A stretch of 64,000 nucleotides of DNA from a bacterium. Its GTDB lineage: Bacteria; Armatimonadota; Fimbriimonadia; Fimbriimonadales; Fimbriimonadaceae. The stretch spans positions 489,632 to 553,631 of the forward strand of contig JAIXQR010000001.1 in NCBI GenBank assembly GCA_027485645.1. Reading direction: 5' to 3'. The notes beneath the pieces are model-generated. The model had not been told where the DNA came from. It ran no database searches and worked only from the letters and a program-made list of their open reading frames with translations. Every line of letters starts with the position of its first letter. Position 1 is the first letter of the stretch. The translations under genes and the position numbers were made by a program. Of this stretch, positions 28,862 through 36,855 are shown in pieces.

Positions 28862-31800
28862 TCAGTACCGAATGTCGATCTTCGTTCGATCTGGGTACGC
28901 GGGCTTGATCGGTTTTGGATACTTGAACGTCGCGGCTTCCTTTAGGACTTCGGCGACGGCTCGCTCAAGCTGCGCGTCTCGGCCTTGGCGCCAGAGGTAG
29001 GGGTCCATTTCGACCTCGATGTCTGGCTCCACGCCCCAGCCTTCAACGTCCCAGGTTCCGTTCGGGTTGTAGAACGCTACGTCCGGTGCTCGGACAACGC
29101 CGCCGTCAACGAGTTCGAAGCCGAAGGCTCGGACGAGGCCGCCCCAGGTTCGCTTGCCGACAAGCTTTCCGACCTTTTGGTTTCGGAAGAGCCATGGGAA
29201 CATGTCTCCGCCCGAACCGGCCCACTGGTTGATGACCATGATCTTAGGTCCAAAGACGCTGACGCCCGGGGTTGGTCCGTCCTTTCCACTTCTCGGGGCA
29301 AATACACCCTGGAGCGTTCGGGTCATCTCGAGAACCATGTAGTCGTTGATCAGTCCGCCCTGGTTGAACCGCTCGTCGATCACCATTCCTTGCTTGTTCG
29401 ACTGGGCGTAGTAGTACCGGTTGAAGCTCGTCCAACCGCCGACGGTCGTGTCGGGAACGTGGACGTAGCCAATCTTTCCGCCGCTAAGCTTATCAACGAG
29501 GCGACGATTGTCCTCTCGCCAAGCGAGGGCGCGAAGGCCATTCTCGCTCGCAACGGGCACGACCGTCACTTCTCGGGAGCCCGCGCCATCAGGCTTCGGT
29601 CCGATCTTGATCTTGACCTGTTTGCCCGCTTTGGCCTCTAGCTTTTCGTAGATATCGCCTTGTTCGGTAAGGTCCTTGCCATCGATAGCGAGGATGTACT
29701 CACCGGCCACGGCGTTGACGCCGGGAGCGGTCAGCGGAGCTCGCGCACCGGGGTTCCAGTTCTCGCCGTTGTAGACCCGGGTTAGGCGGTAGCGACCATT
29801 CTCAAACGAGTAGTCGGCGCCAAGTAGTCCACCCGGAATGAACGGCTTGCCTGGAATGTCGCCGCCGTCGATGAACATGTGGCCGATGCTGAGCTCGCCT
29901 AGCATGTCGGTGAACAGGTAGTTCAGGTCGGCGCGGCTCGCGATGTTCTTCAGGAACGGTTCGTACCGACGCTCCATCTCGCCAGCGTTGATGCCGTGCA
30001 GGTTCGGGTCATAGAAGAAGATTCGCTCGTTTCGCCAAACTTCTTTGAACATCTGTCGCCATTCCTGGCGAGGGTCGATCTTGATCCGCATCCCGCTGAT
30101 TTCGAGCGGGGTTGGCGGCGCGGGGGCCACTGTACTGAGGATCTGAAGCTGACCCGCTTGGAGGATCAGGGCTTTGTCGCCGTTTGCGCTGACGTCAAGG
30201 AGCTGTACTCCGGTTCCGACCGGTTGAGGTCGGCGAGTAGCGAAGCTAAAGCGAAGAAGCGTCACCTGCGCGGGCGACGTTAGAGTTGCCCGAGGGGAAG
30301 AGTAGACCGCCAAGAACGAGCCAGGCGTTGCCGCTTCCAGTGCGGAGTAGTCGGCCGTTGGCATCGGGAGGGCGAGGATTCGCTGTGAAATGTCTTCGAA
30401 GTCGATGCTCACTTTGACCGCGGGCCGCGGGCCTCTTGGTCCACCCGGAGGGCCACCAGCTGGCGGACCACCGGCAGGCGGACCTCCAGCGGGAGGGGCA
30501 GTTGGCGGAGTTGCAGGAGGCGTCGGTGGGGTTGGTTCTTTGACCGCTTCCTCGTCGCTCTCAGGGCCCAGCGGGTTCTCGCCGTCCTTCTTGAGGACGA
30601 TGGCGTAAACGCTGCTGACCACGTTGAGGTTGGTGTAGCTGCTGATGTCCAGGTAGCTCGCTGCAGGGCCCGTGTTGGTGCTGGCGACAAAGTAGAGATG
30701 CTTCCCGTCTCGGTCAAACACCGGGTACTTCGCGTTGCTCAGACCGTCCGTGATCTGCGTGGTCTTCGCGGAATCGAGGCTGTAAACAAACACCGCATTC
30801 AGGTGATTGTCGAGGTCTCGAGCCCAAGTGAGCCAGCGCGAGTCCGGCGCCCAGCGCGGCACGATGTTGGTGTTCGGGTCTTCGTAAGTCCCGGTGTCCA
30901 CCTTGATGTTTCGCCCGGTCGATAGTTCGTGAATCCAAACGTTCTTCTTGTTGTCGGTGTAGGCGATCGCCTTGCTGTCGGGCGACCACACCAAAGTCGA
31001 GAAATACGAAAGTCCCTCGCCGAGGCGAACGCGCTTTTCTTCCTTGGTCGCGGGGTTGTGGAGAATGAGTTCGTACCAGCCGGTGGAATCGCTGATGAAG
31101 GCAATCGTTTGCCCGTCGGGCGACCAAGCGGGGAATCGCTCAGCCACGCCCTGTCGGCCGGTCAGTTCACGGATATCACCCTTGCTGGCGGGAACGGTCA
31201 AGATGTGCCCGCGGGATTCAACCACAACGCGCTGGCCGCTTGGAGACAGGCTCGCTCCCGAAATTCGGTTCGATAAGTCCTTAAACTGAGTGCGAACCTC
31301 GGGGAAGTCGGCAGAAATCGTAATGTCGACCCGCTGGCTGGTTCGCGTCTTGGGGTCGAAAAGGTGAATCGAGCCGAGCTTTTCGTAAACGATGGCCCCA
31401 GCCCCGGCGGTCGCAGACTTGATGTCGAAGCCAGCCGGAGGTACTTCCTCAACGACCTGACCAGACTTCTCGTCGTAGCTGTAGAGGCTCACCGGACCCT
31501 TCTTGTCGGAAAGGAAGTAGATCCGGTCGCCGATCCACATCGGCTGTTCATCGTTGGTGTTCTTTCGTGGAATCTCCTTCCACTTCGAATCCTTTAGGTC
31601 TGCGATCCAGATGGCATAGGTTTGCCCACCACGGTATCGCTTCCAGGCGTCTTGCCACTTGATGCCCGCGACATACGCAATTCGCTGGCCGTCTGGCGAG
31701 AGGGAGCCCATGCTGCCGGAAGGCAAAGGTAACGGCTTTGGCGTTCCGCCATTAACAGCCACGGTGAAAAGCCGCGGAAGAATGGTGTTGAGAAGCATTC

Positions 31801-32203
31801 CCGAGGTGATCAGAGCGCTCTTTCCATCGGGTGTCCATCCCGCGGCTCGATCGGTAGTCGGGTGGAAGGTCAATCGCTTTGGACTGCCGCCGGTTGCCGG
31901 CATGACAAACACGTCCTGGTTGCCGTCATATTCGCCGCTGAACAAGATTTGCGTACCGTCTGGCGAGAAGAATGGCTCAGATTCGATTCCGGCATCGGTG
32001 GTCAATCGCTGGGCCGCGCCGCCGGATCTGGGTACCGACCACAAATCACCGGCATATTCGAAAACGATGCTGGTTGCATTGACGGTGGGATGCTTCATGA
32101 GCATCGGGTTCGGACCAGGGTAAAAGGGGTCGTTGGCTTGGGTGGAAGTCACCCCCGCGGTTGCGGTATTTGCCAAAAGGACCGCGAAGGTTCCTAAAGT
32201 CAT
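28862..32203 (-). CDS. Tricorn-like S41 family protease, secreted
   Basis: The roughly 1113-residue protein has a signal peptide (MTLGTFAVLLANTATAG). It has two N-terminal beta-propellers made of WD40-like/TolB units (repeated SPDGQRIAYV and SPDGTQILFS patterns), a low-complexity PPAGG linker, a C1-like helical region, a PDZ domain (AGEYILAIDGKDLTEQG) and an S41 peptidase core. The nucleophile is the Ser in NQWAGSGGDMFP, near residue 997. Tricorn proteases degrade oligopeptides to smaller fragments; bacterial secreted forms are common in peptide-using organisms. ATG 32203 is chosen over 32254 because of signal-peptide position and the -10-like hexamer. Family length agrees. Confidence 0.92.
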   Translation of the reverse strand: MTLGTFAVLLANTATAGVTSTQANDPFYPGPNPMLMKHPTVNATSIVFEYAGDLWSVPRSGGAAQRLTTDAGIESEPFFSPDGTQILFSGEYDGNQDVFVMPATGGSPKRLTFHPTTDRAAGWTPDGKSALITSGMLLNTILPRLFTVAVNGGTPKPLPLPSGSMGSLSPDGQRIAYVAGIKWQDAWKRYRGGQTYAIWIADLKDSKWKEIPRKNTNDEQPMWIGDRIYFLSDKKGPVSLYSYDEKSGQVVEEVPPAGFDIKSATAGAGAIVYEKLGSIHLFDPKTRTSQRVDITISADFPEVRTQFKDLSNRISGASLSPSGQRVVVESRGHILTVPASKGDIRELTGRQGVAERFPAWSPDGQTIAFISDSTGWYELILHNPATKEEKRVRLGEGLSYFSTLVWSPDSKAIAYTDNKKNVWIHELSTGRNIKVDTGTYEDPNTNIVPRWAPDSRWLTWARDLDNHLNAVFVYSLDSAKTTQITDGLSNAKYPVFDRDGKHLYFVASTNTGPAASYLDISSYTNLNVVSSVYAIVLKKDGENPLGPESDEEAVKEPTPPTPPATPPTAPPAGGPPAGGPPAGGPPGGPRGPRPAVKVSIDFEDISQRILALPMPTADYSALEAATPGSFLAVYSSPRATLTSPAQVTLLRFSFATRRPQPVGTGVQLLDVSANGDKALILQAGQLQILSTVAPAPPTPLEISGMRIKIDPRQEWRQMFKEVWRNERIFFYDPNLHGINAGEMERRYEPFLKNIASRADLNYLFTDMLGELSIGHMFIDGGDIPGKPFIPGGLLGADYSFENGRYRLTRVYNGENWNPGARAPLTAPGVNAVAGEYILAIDGKDLTEQGDIYEKLEAKAGKQVKIKIGPKPDGAGSREVTVVPVASENGLRALAWREDNRRLVDKLSGGKIGYVHVPDTTVGGWTSFNRYYYAQSNKQGMVIDERFNQGGLINDYMVLEMTRTLQGVFAPRSGKDGPTPGVSVFGPKIMVINQWAGSGGDMFPWLFRNQKVGKLVGKRTWGGLVRAFGFELVDGGVVRAPDVAFYNPNGTWDVEGWGVEPDIEVEMDPYLWRQGRDAQLERAVAEVLKEAATFKYPKPIKPAYPDRTKIDIRY

Positions 32204-32210
32204 TCCGTTC

Positions 32211-32216
32211 ACTGTA
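32211..32216 (-). promoter_or_regulatory. -10-like TACAGT, 7 nt before ATG 32203
   Basis: On the minus strand TACAGT and seven bases precede the chosen start of the S41 protease, supporting the shorter N-terminus. Confidence 0.42.
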
Positions 32217-32281
32217 CGGTTCACAGGGCGGAATACGCAAGTTCCGCCCGGCATATCCTGCCAAAAGACCCCAAATTTAGG

Positions 32282-33324: not shown

Positions 33325-34206
33325 ATGAAAGTAATCATTGGCGTTGATGCAGGTGGCGGTTACCGTCCCGGAATGGACTTGTTCGTACGACTAGGCTTCA
33401 CCGGAGCCGAGGTCACGGTCGTTTCTGCGGTGGATACGACTCCTCCGATCGTTCCGCTTGGGCCGGGTGCACCGTTTGTGGCCACGGACTACGTGAGCCA
33501 GACCGATTCGGCCGCTCACCGGGCAGTGGCGCAAGCCGTCGAGAGTTTGGAAGCCGACGGCATCAAGGCGGAATCTGTTGTTCTCTTCGGCGCGGTCGTG
33601 CCGGTACTCCTTCGCGAAGCCAGCGAACTCAAGGCCGACCTTTTGGTCGTGAACTCTGTCGTTCGTGGTAAATGGATGAGCGCGATTCTGGGCAGCGTGA
33701 GCAACTCGCTCACCAACGAATCGGAGTCATCGGTGCTTGTTTCAAAGGGAGAATCGCTCCCAGAAGGACCTCTCAAAGCCGTTTTCGCGACGGATCACTC
33801 GGAATACGCGACTCGTGCGCTTGAGGAGTTCCTCAAGATGGCGCCGATGGGGCTGCAGCAAATCCACATTCTGACCGTCTACGACATCGACGAACTCGAA
33901 ACGAAGATGGTGCTCCGAAGTCTGCCCGACCTGCAGATTGACATGAAGGAATGGGTTGCGGAGCAGCTTACGGAGAAGTGCCAGGCCCTAGCGACCCGAC
34001 TGGGTGAATCCGGCTACGACGTCACCTTTAGCGTGGTTGCCGGAGACGTGAACGAACAGATTTCGAACACGATGACCGAGCAAGCCGCGAGTCTTCTGAT
34101 CCTTGGAGCGCAGGGGCACGGCCTCATCGAGCGCGTCTTCACGGGAAGTGTGGCCCTTCACCAGGTTGTGTCGGAGCCTTATCCGGTTTTGCTGATCCGG
34201 GCTTAG
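33325..34206 (+). CDS. Tandem universal stress protein (UspA-like)
   Basis: The 293-residue protein is made of two Usp domains (about 1-145 and 148-293). The first starts MKVIIGVDAGGG. The second starts LKAVFATDHSEYA and ends with the nucleotide-binding pattern LILGAQGHGLIERVFTGSVALHQVV followed by YPVLLIRA. The first domain has a less regular loop (SVVRGKWMSAILGSVSNSL). Such proteins bind ATP or AMP and act in stress tolerance without a single known reaction. The start has GGAG at moderate distance. The 3' end overlaps the convergent proteasome-like gene by 4 nt. Confidence 0.88.
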   Translation: MKVIIGVDAGGGYRPGMDLFVRLGFTGAEVTVVSAVDTTPPIVPLGPGAPFVATDYVSQTDSAAHRAVAQAVESLEADGIKAESVVLFGAVVPVLLREASELKADLLVVNSVVRGKWMSAILGSVSNSLTNESESSVLVSKGESLPEGPLKAVFATDHSEYATRALEEFLKMAPMGLQQIHILTVYDIDELETKMVLRSLPDLQIDMKEWVAEQLTEKCQALATRLGESGYDVTFSVVAGDVNEQISNTMTEQAASLLILGAQGHGLIERVFTGSVALHQVVSEPYPVLLIRA

Positions 34207-34874
34207 ATCCCTTCAACGGCCCGAAGCACTCGGAAGCGGTCCTCTCGCAGCGTATTACGCTCCATGAGGATCGCTTCTTCTTTGAGACCCTCAGGGACGG
34301 TTCCTTCGAAGCTGGAATCAAAAATGTCGGAGAGCTTCAAGATTGCTTCCTCGGGATCAGTAGAAGCCGGAATTGCCGCAAGCGCGGTCTCCAATTTGGA
34401 ACCCGACTCGAGCGTGCCAGCGATTGCCGACCGAAGCCGAGCCACAGCGTAATCACCATCGAAATCGATGACGTAGTACGTGTCTTTTTCGGGCGTTTCG
34501 CCCAGTTCACCGAACATCGAACGGGCAACAACCGGTGCGGTACGGAAGTCTGCAAAAGCCTGTTTGATCGGTCCGCTTACGGTTGTGGCGACGCGTTGTA
34601 CGGTCACGTCGTCTTCGCTGCGTTGATACCCCTCGCGACTCGCAAACTCAAGGGCGGCGGCTCGAATGGCTTCAAGGTCAGATTGCTGCCCAAGCCCGGC
34701 AAAGATGATTCGATCGTAGATCTCGAAAACCTTCCGGCTCTGGCGTCGACGGGAGTACATCAGCAATCCTTCATTCAGCGAGATGGCGAGGACGGGAAGA
34801 CCCTGAGCGAGTCGTCCTTCAATGTACTGGGCGCGATTACTGACGCCCTCTTGCCAATCGTATGGTGAGATCAT
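34203..34874 (-). CDS. Proteasome alpha-subunit-like protein
   Basis: The 223-residue protein matches bacterial 20S alpha subunits. The N-terminal stretch PYDWQEGVSNRAQYIEGRL, then VLAISLNEGLLMYSRRR, KVFEIYDRIIFAGLGQQSDLEAIRAAALEFA and DDVTVQRVATTVSGPI follow the order of PrcA (gate segment, first beta strand, YDRI motif, helix 1). There is no N-terminal Thr nucleophile, as expected for alpha. No beta subunit, ARC/Mpa ATPase or Pup/UBact gene is visible in the window. It is third in a row after M28 and 5'-nucleotidase-C genes, 18 nt from the M28 stop. Confidence 0.72.
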   Translation of the reverse strand: MISPYDWQEGVSNRAQYIEGRLAQGLPVLAISLNEGLLMYSRRRQSRKVFEIYDRIIFAGLGQQSDLEAIRAAALEFASREGYQRSEDDVTVQRVATTVSGPIKQAFADFRTAPVVARSMFGELGETPEKDTYYVIDFDGDYAVARLRSAIAGTLESGSKLETALAAIPASTDPEEAILKLSDIFDSSFEGTVPEGLKEEAILMERNTLREDRFRVLRAVEGI

Positions 34875-34892: not shown

Positions 34893-35885
34893 TTAGCGCT
34901 TGAGAGTCCAAGGAGTTGGCTTTGTGAACCAGGTTTCCAGAAGTTTGCCGACTTTGCCGAGACTTTCGGCACTGCATTTGTCGGGAGTGTCCTGCAGGGT
35001 GTGCCAGTAGGGGTAGTCGAAGTCAATTAAGTCGATGGTCGGAACCCCGGCGCGGTTAAGGCTGAGATGGTCATCCAGGATTGGGCTCCCGATGACGTTG
35101 GGGAACGTCGAACGCATGTCAAGCGAAGCCGCGTGGAGATACAGGGCCTTCATCAGCTCCGGCGCGTAATAGTTGCTGTATTCCTCTTTCGGAATCGCAA
35201 GCTCGGCGTCCCCGATCATGTCCAGGAGAATCCCGTATTGCGGTTTCGGCGACGGGAGGTTTCGAGAAAGGTACTCGGCCCCAAGAAACATTTCGCTAAT
35301 GTCCGGCCCAAGGTCTTCTCCATCAACAAACGCGTAGCAAATACCTACCGAGCCGGTGCGCCCCTTAAGGGTCTTCATCAGTTCGAGGAGAACCGCAACG
35401 CCGCTGGCACCGTCATTTGCCCCCACGATCGGCTTAAGTCGATCTGACGGTCTTGCCTCCATATCGGCGCTTGGGCGAGTGTCCCAGTGGGCAAGCAGAA
35501 TCACCCGCGTGGTGGCTTTCTCCCAGTTTTGGAACGCGAGCACGTTGGTCATGTCGTAGACGTCGCGCGTCTTCGTCCAGCGGTGGGTGAAGTTTTGGAG
35601 CTCAACCTTATCGGCGTACTTCGTTGCTTCGTCCTGAATGAAGGTTTTGGCTTTCGCGTGCCCAACGGTTCCAGGAACGCGTGGACCGAACTCGCACTGC
35701 TGCTTCAGATAGGTGTAAGCAGCTTCGCCGCTAAACGGCTTGACAGAAGCTACCGGGTCTTGACTGTGCGGGACGCTCAGGAGCCCGAAGCCAACCAGCG
35801 TGGCGAGGAGTCGGTAACCCGCTTTCCGCGCAGGACTTCTTCCAAGGTTTGCGGCAGCGTCTTGGTGATTTTGCTCTTGTCCCAT
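34893..35885 (-). CDS. M28 family peptidase / glutaminyl cyclase-like protein
   Basis: The 330-residue exported protein has a hydrophobic segment (about 25-38) after a charged N-terminus. Metal-site motifs of the M28/QC fold are visible: LLAHWDTRP, GANDGASGVAVLLE, FVDGEDLG, LLDMIGD and a late His near DYPYWHTLQDTPDKC. Bacterial glutaminyl cyclases and aminopeptidases share this fold, and the PRVPGTVGHAKAKTFI start favours a QC-like member. The only ATG places the first 109 nt inside the upstream 5'-nucleotidase-C gene in another frame. The overlap appears real because both frames carry family motifs. Confidence 0.87.
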   Translation of the reverse strand: MGQEQNHQDAAANLGRSPARKAGYRLLATLVGFGLLSVPHSQDPVASVKPFSGEAAYTYLKQQCEFGPRVPGTVGHAKAKTFIQDEATKYADKVELQNFTHRWTKTRDVYDMTNVLAFQNWEKATTRVILLAHWDTRPSADMEARPSDRLKPIVGANDGASGVAVLLELMKTLKGRTGSVGICYAFVDGEDLGPDISEMFLGAEYLSRNLPSPKPQYGILLDMIGDAELAIPKEEYSNYYAPELMKALYLHAASLDMRSTFPNVIGSPILDDHLSLNRAGVPTIDLIDFDYPYWHTLQDTPDKCSAESLGKVGKLLETWFTKPTPWTLKR

Positions 35886-36429: not shown

Positions 36430-36855
36430 TTAGTCTTCGACGCGAACGCCCATGGATCGTGCCGAACCGGCAACGATGCGCATAGCCATTTCTTCGTCGG
36501 TGGTGTTAAGGTCAGCCATTTTCTGCTTTGCAACTTCGCGAAGCTTTTCTTTGGTAAGGAACCCGGCTTTGTCGGTTTTGGCGTTTGCCGCACCGCGCTC
36601 GATTCCGGCGGCTCTCTTGATGAGATCCGTGACGAGCGGCTGGTTGATCTTGAAAGTGTAGGAGCGATCTTCGAAGACGGTGATTTCAACCGGCATCACG
36701 AAGCCCATGTTCGGGGCAGTCGTTTCGTTGAATTTCTTCAAGAACTCCATCATGTTGATGCCGGCCTGACCGAGGGCAGGACCTACTGGCGGAGCTGGAG
36801 TTCCCTTTCCGGCCGGGATGTTGAGCTTGATGTTCGCGGTAATTTTCTTTGCCAT
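36430..36855 (-). CDS. rplK: 50S ribosomal protein L11
   Basis: The 141-residue protein is a typical uL11: AKKITANIKLNIPAGKGTPAPPVGPALGQ in pieces, GINMMEFLKKFN, the linker and the C-terminal rRNA-binding domain ending IVAGSARSMGVRVED. It forms the GTPase-associated stalk base and is needed for elongation-factor function. AGAAGAGA upstream of the ATG can serve as a Shine-Dalgarno sequence. Its usual neighbours nusG, secE and rplA are missing: upstream is a HEPN-like gene and downstream a 5'-nucleotidase-C gene. Confidence 0.96.
   Translation of the reverse strand: MAKKITANIKLNIPAGKGTPAPPVGPALGQAGINMMEFLKKFNETTAPNMGFVMPVEITVFEDRSYTFKINQPLVTDLIKRAAGIERGAANAKTDKAGFLTKEKLREVAKQKMADLNTTDEEMAMRIVAGSARSMGVRVED

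Follow-up and report, generated by a model that had tools for sequence, protein, structure and literature searches.

The window, that is, the whole stretch of 64,000 nucleotides that was analysed, covers positions 489632-553631 of contig C3 in a genome of 3.19 Mb (7 contigs, 98.4% complete). It contained a gene for a proteasome alpha subunit, prcA, which lies downstream of a peptidase gene of the M28 family and, farther off, of the gene for ribosomal protein L11 (Table 1). The open reading frame of prcA runs without interruption from an ATG start to a TAA stop. In a survey of 56 prcA loci from relatives, several of which end at contig ends and one of which (L102) is a close relative of the window, the M28 gene was present in the fetched flanks of 17 loci (directly upstream and on the same strand in 11), and rplK in those of 22. 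A different setting was found at locus L136, with a tRNA-synthetase-like gene and, at a greater distance, an mnmG-like gene (both by sequence). Locus L003 contributed to none of the analyses. The 56 loci revealed no single conserved partner gene and no operon implying a new function for prcA. The window also harbors a gene for a tricorn-like protease. In Thermoplasma, tricorn trims the products of the proteasome. The proximity of the two genes here is probably a coincidence, because a tricorn match occurred in the fetched flanks of just 2 of the 56 loci.

Table 1. Genes at and near the prcA locus, in coordinates of the window.
Feature	Position	Strand	Remarks
prcA: proteasome alpha subunit	34203..34874	-	223 aa; first helix 4-22; pocket lysine K48
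M28-family peptidase	34893..35885	-	18 nt upstream of prcA, same strand; signal peptide by eye
rplK (ribosomal protein L11)	36430..36855	-	named from sequence
Tricorn-like protease	28862-32254	-	1130 aa; PDZ_Tricorn, Tricorn_C1 and S41 domains; signal peptide by eye; ~2 kb from prcA

The prcA product belongs to the alpha subunits of bacterial proteasomes (PrcA), as a divergent member. Among the proteasome-fold families, its best sequence match was PrcA: a phmmer search of the PDB placed Rhodococcus PrcA first (E 3.8e-9), a profile of 24 prcA relatives recovered PrcA at 1.2e-17, and a wider alpha profile of 40 rows recovered it at 1.1e-21. The 24-relative profile matched 29 PDB sequences at E<=1, including 27 proteasome subunits headed by PrcA and two weak, unrelated proteins. 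The NCBIfam model TIGR03691 (20S_bact_alpha) aligned with residues 11-156 (E 2e-17) at 63.4 bits, which is below its curated cut-off of 139.05, so that the equivalog rule does not confer the name; the match to Pfam PF00227 (Proteasome) was weak (19.6 bits, cut-off 22.4). The alpha subunit, the beta subunit and Mpa all scored below the curated cut-offs of the NCBIfam equivalog models, presumably because these models were built on Actinobacteria. Sub-threshold scores against curated models might also be expected if prcA were the decaying remnant of an alpha gene, but the open frame, the 34 invariant columns among 24 aligned family members, and the retention of an alpha gene in 55 of the 61 family genomes (a beta gene in 56) leave that explanation next to no probability.

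The predicted fold pointed in the same direction. An AF2 model based on the 40-row alignment (mean pLDDT 95.1, pTM 0.91) contained the alpha-specific first helix ahead of the Ntn sandwich, with block pLDDT values of 94-97, and the strands and helices that followed came in proteasome order. The YDRI motif occupies residues 53-56, and inspection of the sequence revealed no N-terminal Thr nucleophile. The alpha-type N-terminal stretch, the motif and the missing catalytic Thr were therefore all as the sequence-only reading had described them. The best 50 of 1496 Foldseek matches (E<=10) were Mycobacterium or Rhodococcus proteasome chains. Among the VIA matches listed, 22 bacterial rows had Z values of 25.9-26.7, whereas the 28 archaeal and eukaryotic rows had 22.8 or less. 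The weak Pfam score would be compatible with HslV, Anbu or another Ntn hydrolase in place of a proteasome alpha subunit, and the sequence-only reading had stated that a closer similarity to such proteins would overturn its assignment. No such similarity appeared within the comparisons run, in which PrcA came first by sequence, by profile and by fold. HslV models did not match the prcA product at E<=10, although they did match the beta subunit of the same genome. No HslV was seen in that genome, where PF00227 at E<=0.001 reported PrcB alone, and no PDB match named Anbu was obtained at E<=1 when the family profile, in place of a dedicated Anbu model, was run against PDB sequences. Together with the extra first helix and the missing N-terminal Thr, the first rank of PrcA and the lack of a match to HslV models make an HslV, Anbu or other Ntn hydrolase very improbable.

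None of PF00227 (E<=0.001), TIGR03689, PF03136 and NF033388 (each at E<=10) placed a partner gene inside the window, and in this respect the earlier description of a lone alpha gene was accurate. Genome-wide the description failed, since all four models found partners outside the window. A search of the rest of the genome for prcB, arc and UBact, which the same reading had proposed, recovered all three. Its suggestion of a split locus was thereby borne out, with UBact genes present; the relatives of this genome are Armatimonadota. A catalytic-type beta subunit was therefore present in the genome that carries prcA, along with a UBact that exceeded its cut-offs, Dop/PafA-type enzymes and an Mpa/ARC ATPase. 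The genes dop, UBact and prcB formed a cluster at C3:332.5 kb, ~190 kb (190,621 bases) from prcA, in which neighbouring genes share bases between stop and start codon (ATGA at one junction, TAATG at the other). PrcB scored 136.3 bits against TIGR03690, below the cut-off of 191.9, and its residues T30, D46 and K62, which we take to be Thr1, Asp17 and Lys33, were the same in all 14 betas aligned. A second gene of the Pup_ligase type was located at C1:328 kb. Both Pup_ligase genes exceeded the PF03136 cut-off and fell below the NCBIfam equivalog cut-offs; the assignment of the C1 gene as the ligase is unsure (285.1 bits for PafA, 274.6 for Dop). The Mpa/ARC ATPase was encoded at C6:581 kb (438 bits, below the TIGR03689 cut-off of 504.75). 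Among the other AAA matches of the Mpa search, one resembled FtsH and one a Clp ATPase by eye. The activator Bpa (PF10759) was not detected in the genome at E<=10, and 14 control genomes were also without a match over the cut-off, so that no positive control backs this negative.

UBact comprised 60 amino acids (L002 10313-10495) and scored 79.9 bits against NF033388 (cut-off 35) and 78.7 bits against PF20513 (cut-off 27.8); NF033388 at E<=10 found a single UBact place in the genome. The protein ends in Gln, and according to PMC8142254, a Gln-ended Pup needs deamidation. By analogy, UBact of this genome would therefore need to be deamidated. The C-terminal residue varied among 30 family loci (L046-L075; Gln in 22, Glu in 8), and a near relative with an Mpa that is 97% identical (G044) has a UBact that ends in Glu. 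The need for UBact deamidation thus seems to flip easily.

The split between prcA and prcB is a family trait. Among the matches listed, the two genes were adjacent in none of the 70 Fimbriimonadaceae genomes that contained both: they were on different contigs in 54 and shared a contig, at distances of 18 kb to 1.9 Mb, in 16, which provide the strict evidence for non-adjacency and include 8 one-contig genomes. On the other hand, prcB was followed by prcA on the same strand, with a gap of 12-1049 bases, in 76 of 77 genomes from other families of the phylum, and the lone exception (G113) had the genes on two contigs. Within the order, both genes occurred in three further families, and the 18 genomes concerned all had them adjacent. 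These counts cover the 147 genomes for which places of both genes were listed (149 with beta places, among the matches listed); the beta gene of G106 is known from its genome table. Mpa and prcB were likewise separate in all 31 family genomes and in the one genome from the rest of the order, whereas they were within 6 kb of each other in 37 of the 52 genomes outside the order for which both places were listed. A tree of 18 family and 24 other alpha/beta pairs, in which the bootstrap had not settled (0.958), separated alphas from betas (100/100) and placed the family alphas (97/99) and the family betas (100/99) each on one side of a branch. The simplest reading is one relocation of prcA in the ancestor of the family, and, judging from the dispersal across the family, the system can apparently be kept without prcB and prcA being linked.

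An alpha subunit that had left its operon might also have taken up a job independent of PrcB, for example as a scaffold or a chaperone ring, which was the other option offered by the sequence-only reading. The separation from prcB throughout the family and the recurrence of rplK and the M28 peptidase as new neighbours at part of the loci would be in keeping with such a change, as would the greater divergence of alpha than of beta. Mean pairwise identity, from pairs that are not independent, was 50.6% for alpha and 65.1% for beta in 18 family genomes, and 55.8 and 64.5%, respectively, in 24 other genomes; the somewhat greater divergence of the family alpha would fit mildly relaxed constraint as well. 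However, every genome listed with a match had one alpha match, and beta would therefore be left without any other partner. Alpha and beta were also retained or missing together. Recounted from the genome tables, each was present in 150 of the 237 phylum genomes, with both in 148, neither in 85, and four exceptions, namely alpha only in G059 and G127 and beta only in G020 and G116. Furthermore, the pocket lysine K48 was present in every one of the 40 aligned alphas (and in 42 of 42 in an overlapping set), and the end of UBact was located within the 1.5-kb flanks of prcB at 30 of 30 fetched family loci. These observations do not support a repurposed alpha-like ring, which we regard as very improbable. 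All 85 genomes with an Mpa match, out of 151 searched at E<=1e-80, a threshold that misses weaker or split Mpa genes, contained both alpha and beta; G072 contained alpha and beta and had no Mpa at this threshold. Two family genomes of 1.5 Mb that are 97% complete (G029 and G048) had no alpha, beta or Mpa match, so that a genus with reduced genomes has apparently lost the system. Two beta matches each were obtained in G078 and G092, draft assemblies with contamination values of 6 and 5 that are perhaps mixed.

Based on homology, predicted fold, the presence and conservation of partners, co-occurrence, and the family-wide separation, prcA very probably supplies a bacterial 20S proteasome, which belongs to a UBact conjugation-degradation system, with its structural alpha subunit. 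The apparent orphan in the window would then belong to a UBact-proteasome that is complete but dispersed. We infer the following scheme for the assembly of the rings, the chemistry of tagging, docking and degradation, and a single relocation of prcA. Seven PrcA subunits would form each outer ring of a 28-mer, and the cutting would take place in the two inner rings, built of PrcB in which processing has exposed Thr1. A PafA-type ligase would tag substrates with UBact, while Dop would deamidate Gln-ended UBact and remove the tags. An Mpa/ARC hexamer would unfold the tagged proteins and feed them into the proteasome through the alpha ring. As for prcA, its position after prcB would have been lost, most simply in a single event, with the gene still working in trans. 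The verdict is therefore of a known machine, the UBact-proteasome, with an ordinary role for prcA, an unusual gene arrangement across the family, and a possible, testable variant of activator docking.

For M. tuberculosis, PMC9599533 describes an alpha pocket that receives the GQYL tail of Mpa, where Lys52 can bind the terminal carboxylate and Arg26 or Glu119 the tyrosine, and where Asp144 and Ser146 of the neighbouring subunit can bind the tail glycine; Arg26 and Lys52 are reported there as essential. The invariant K48 is the equivalent of Lys52 in the 40-row pocket alignment, in which the group of 28 comprises loci that were fetched without prcB (the window included) and is not a taxon. With the other residues mapped through printed alignments (~20% identity, with two actinobacterial genera in them) and by an assumed numbering offset of our own, the Asp144-aligned position was D in 39 of 40 alphas and E in one, and the Ser146-aligned position was acidic in 39. 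In contrast to PrcA of M. tuberculosis, Arg was found at the Arg26-aligned position in one alpha of 40, and the Glu119-aligned position was V, L or I in all 40. The Mpa tails, read at 30 fetched loci out of the 85 genomes with Mpa, also differed from the mycobacterial GQYL, as none had a Tyr within the last six residues. The penultimate residue was I or V in all 30 and the last was I or V in 29 (Met in one), with R or K at -5 in 28 and at -4 in 26.

From these residue patterns, the tyrosine contact seems to be gone from tail and pocket alike, with the lysine and the hydrophobic end remaining; the correlation spans related genomes. We consider it possible, at somewhat below an even chance, that the UBact-type proteasomes of the phylum have a docking code of their own. 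Such a code would consist of a Tyr-less tail that is mostly basic-basic-x-[I/V]-[I/V] and a pocket that has dropped both aligned tyrosine partners and kept the lysine and the Asp144-aligned aspartate, activator and ring having moved away together from HbYX and GQYL; with the alpha gene also outside the operon in one family, ring stoichiometry would have to be set in trans there. Alternatively, a basic residue near Arg26 could replace it if register or geometry differs. Basic residues (R or K) occupied position 21 in all 40 alphas and position 23 in 10 of the 12 whose locus also included prcB, which counts against a separate docking code. The joint change in the tail of the ATPase and in the pocket of the alpha subunit provides a natural experiment on the contacts that open a bacterial proteasome gate. 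Neither the split of prcA and prcB nor a Tyr-less Mpa tail was described in the excerpts searched (PMC5666114, PMC7203096, PMC7947786, PMC8142254, PMC3511204, PMC8223512, PMC9599533, PMC11354881, and PMC11475706), which does not prove absence; the tail and the changed pocket are perhaps the newer point of the two.

PrcA of the actinobacterial Pup-proteasome (Mycobacterium, Rhodococcus) shares the fold, the first helix, the E-x-YDR motif, the pocket lysine, and the partner genes with the subunit described here, whereas the identity in structural alignments was 19-22% (among the matches listed) and the family prcA is not located beside prcB. The UBact, Dop/PafA-type genes, PrcB, PrcA, and Mpa of the UBact-proteasome system of Gram-negative bacteria (NCBIfam NF033388) are all present here too, but the family prcA is unlinked, unlike that of the rest of the phylum. 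The alpha and beta genes of the archaeal 20S proteasome are often unlinked, as in Fimbriimonadaceae. In contrast to the archaeal system, UBact tagging genes occur here, as does an ATPase of the Mpa type whose tail lacks Tyr, and the alpha is closer to bacterial PrcA by VIA Z. A prcA of the Fimbriimonadaceae type was also found in public records titled Methanoregulaceae archaeon (L121) and Chthonomonas calidirosea (L102), which are probably mislabelled or mixed MAGs.
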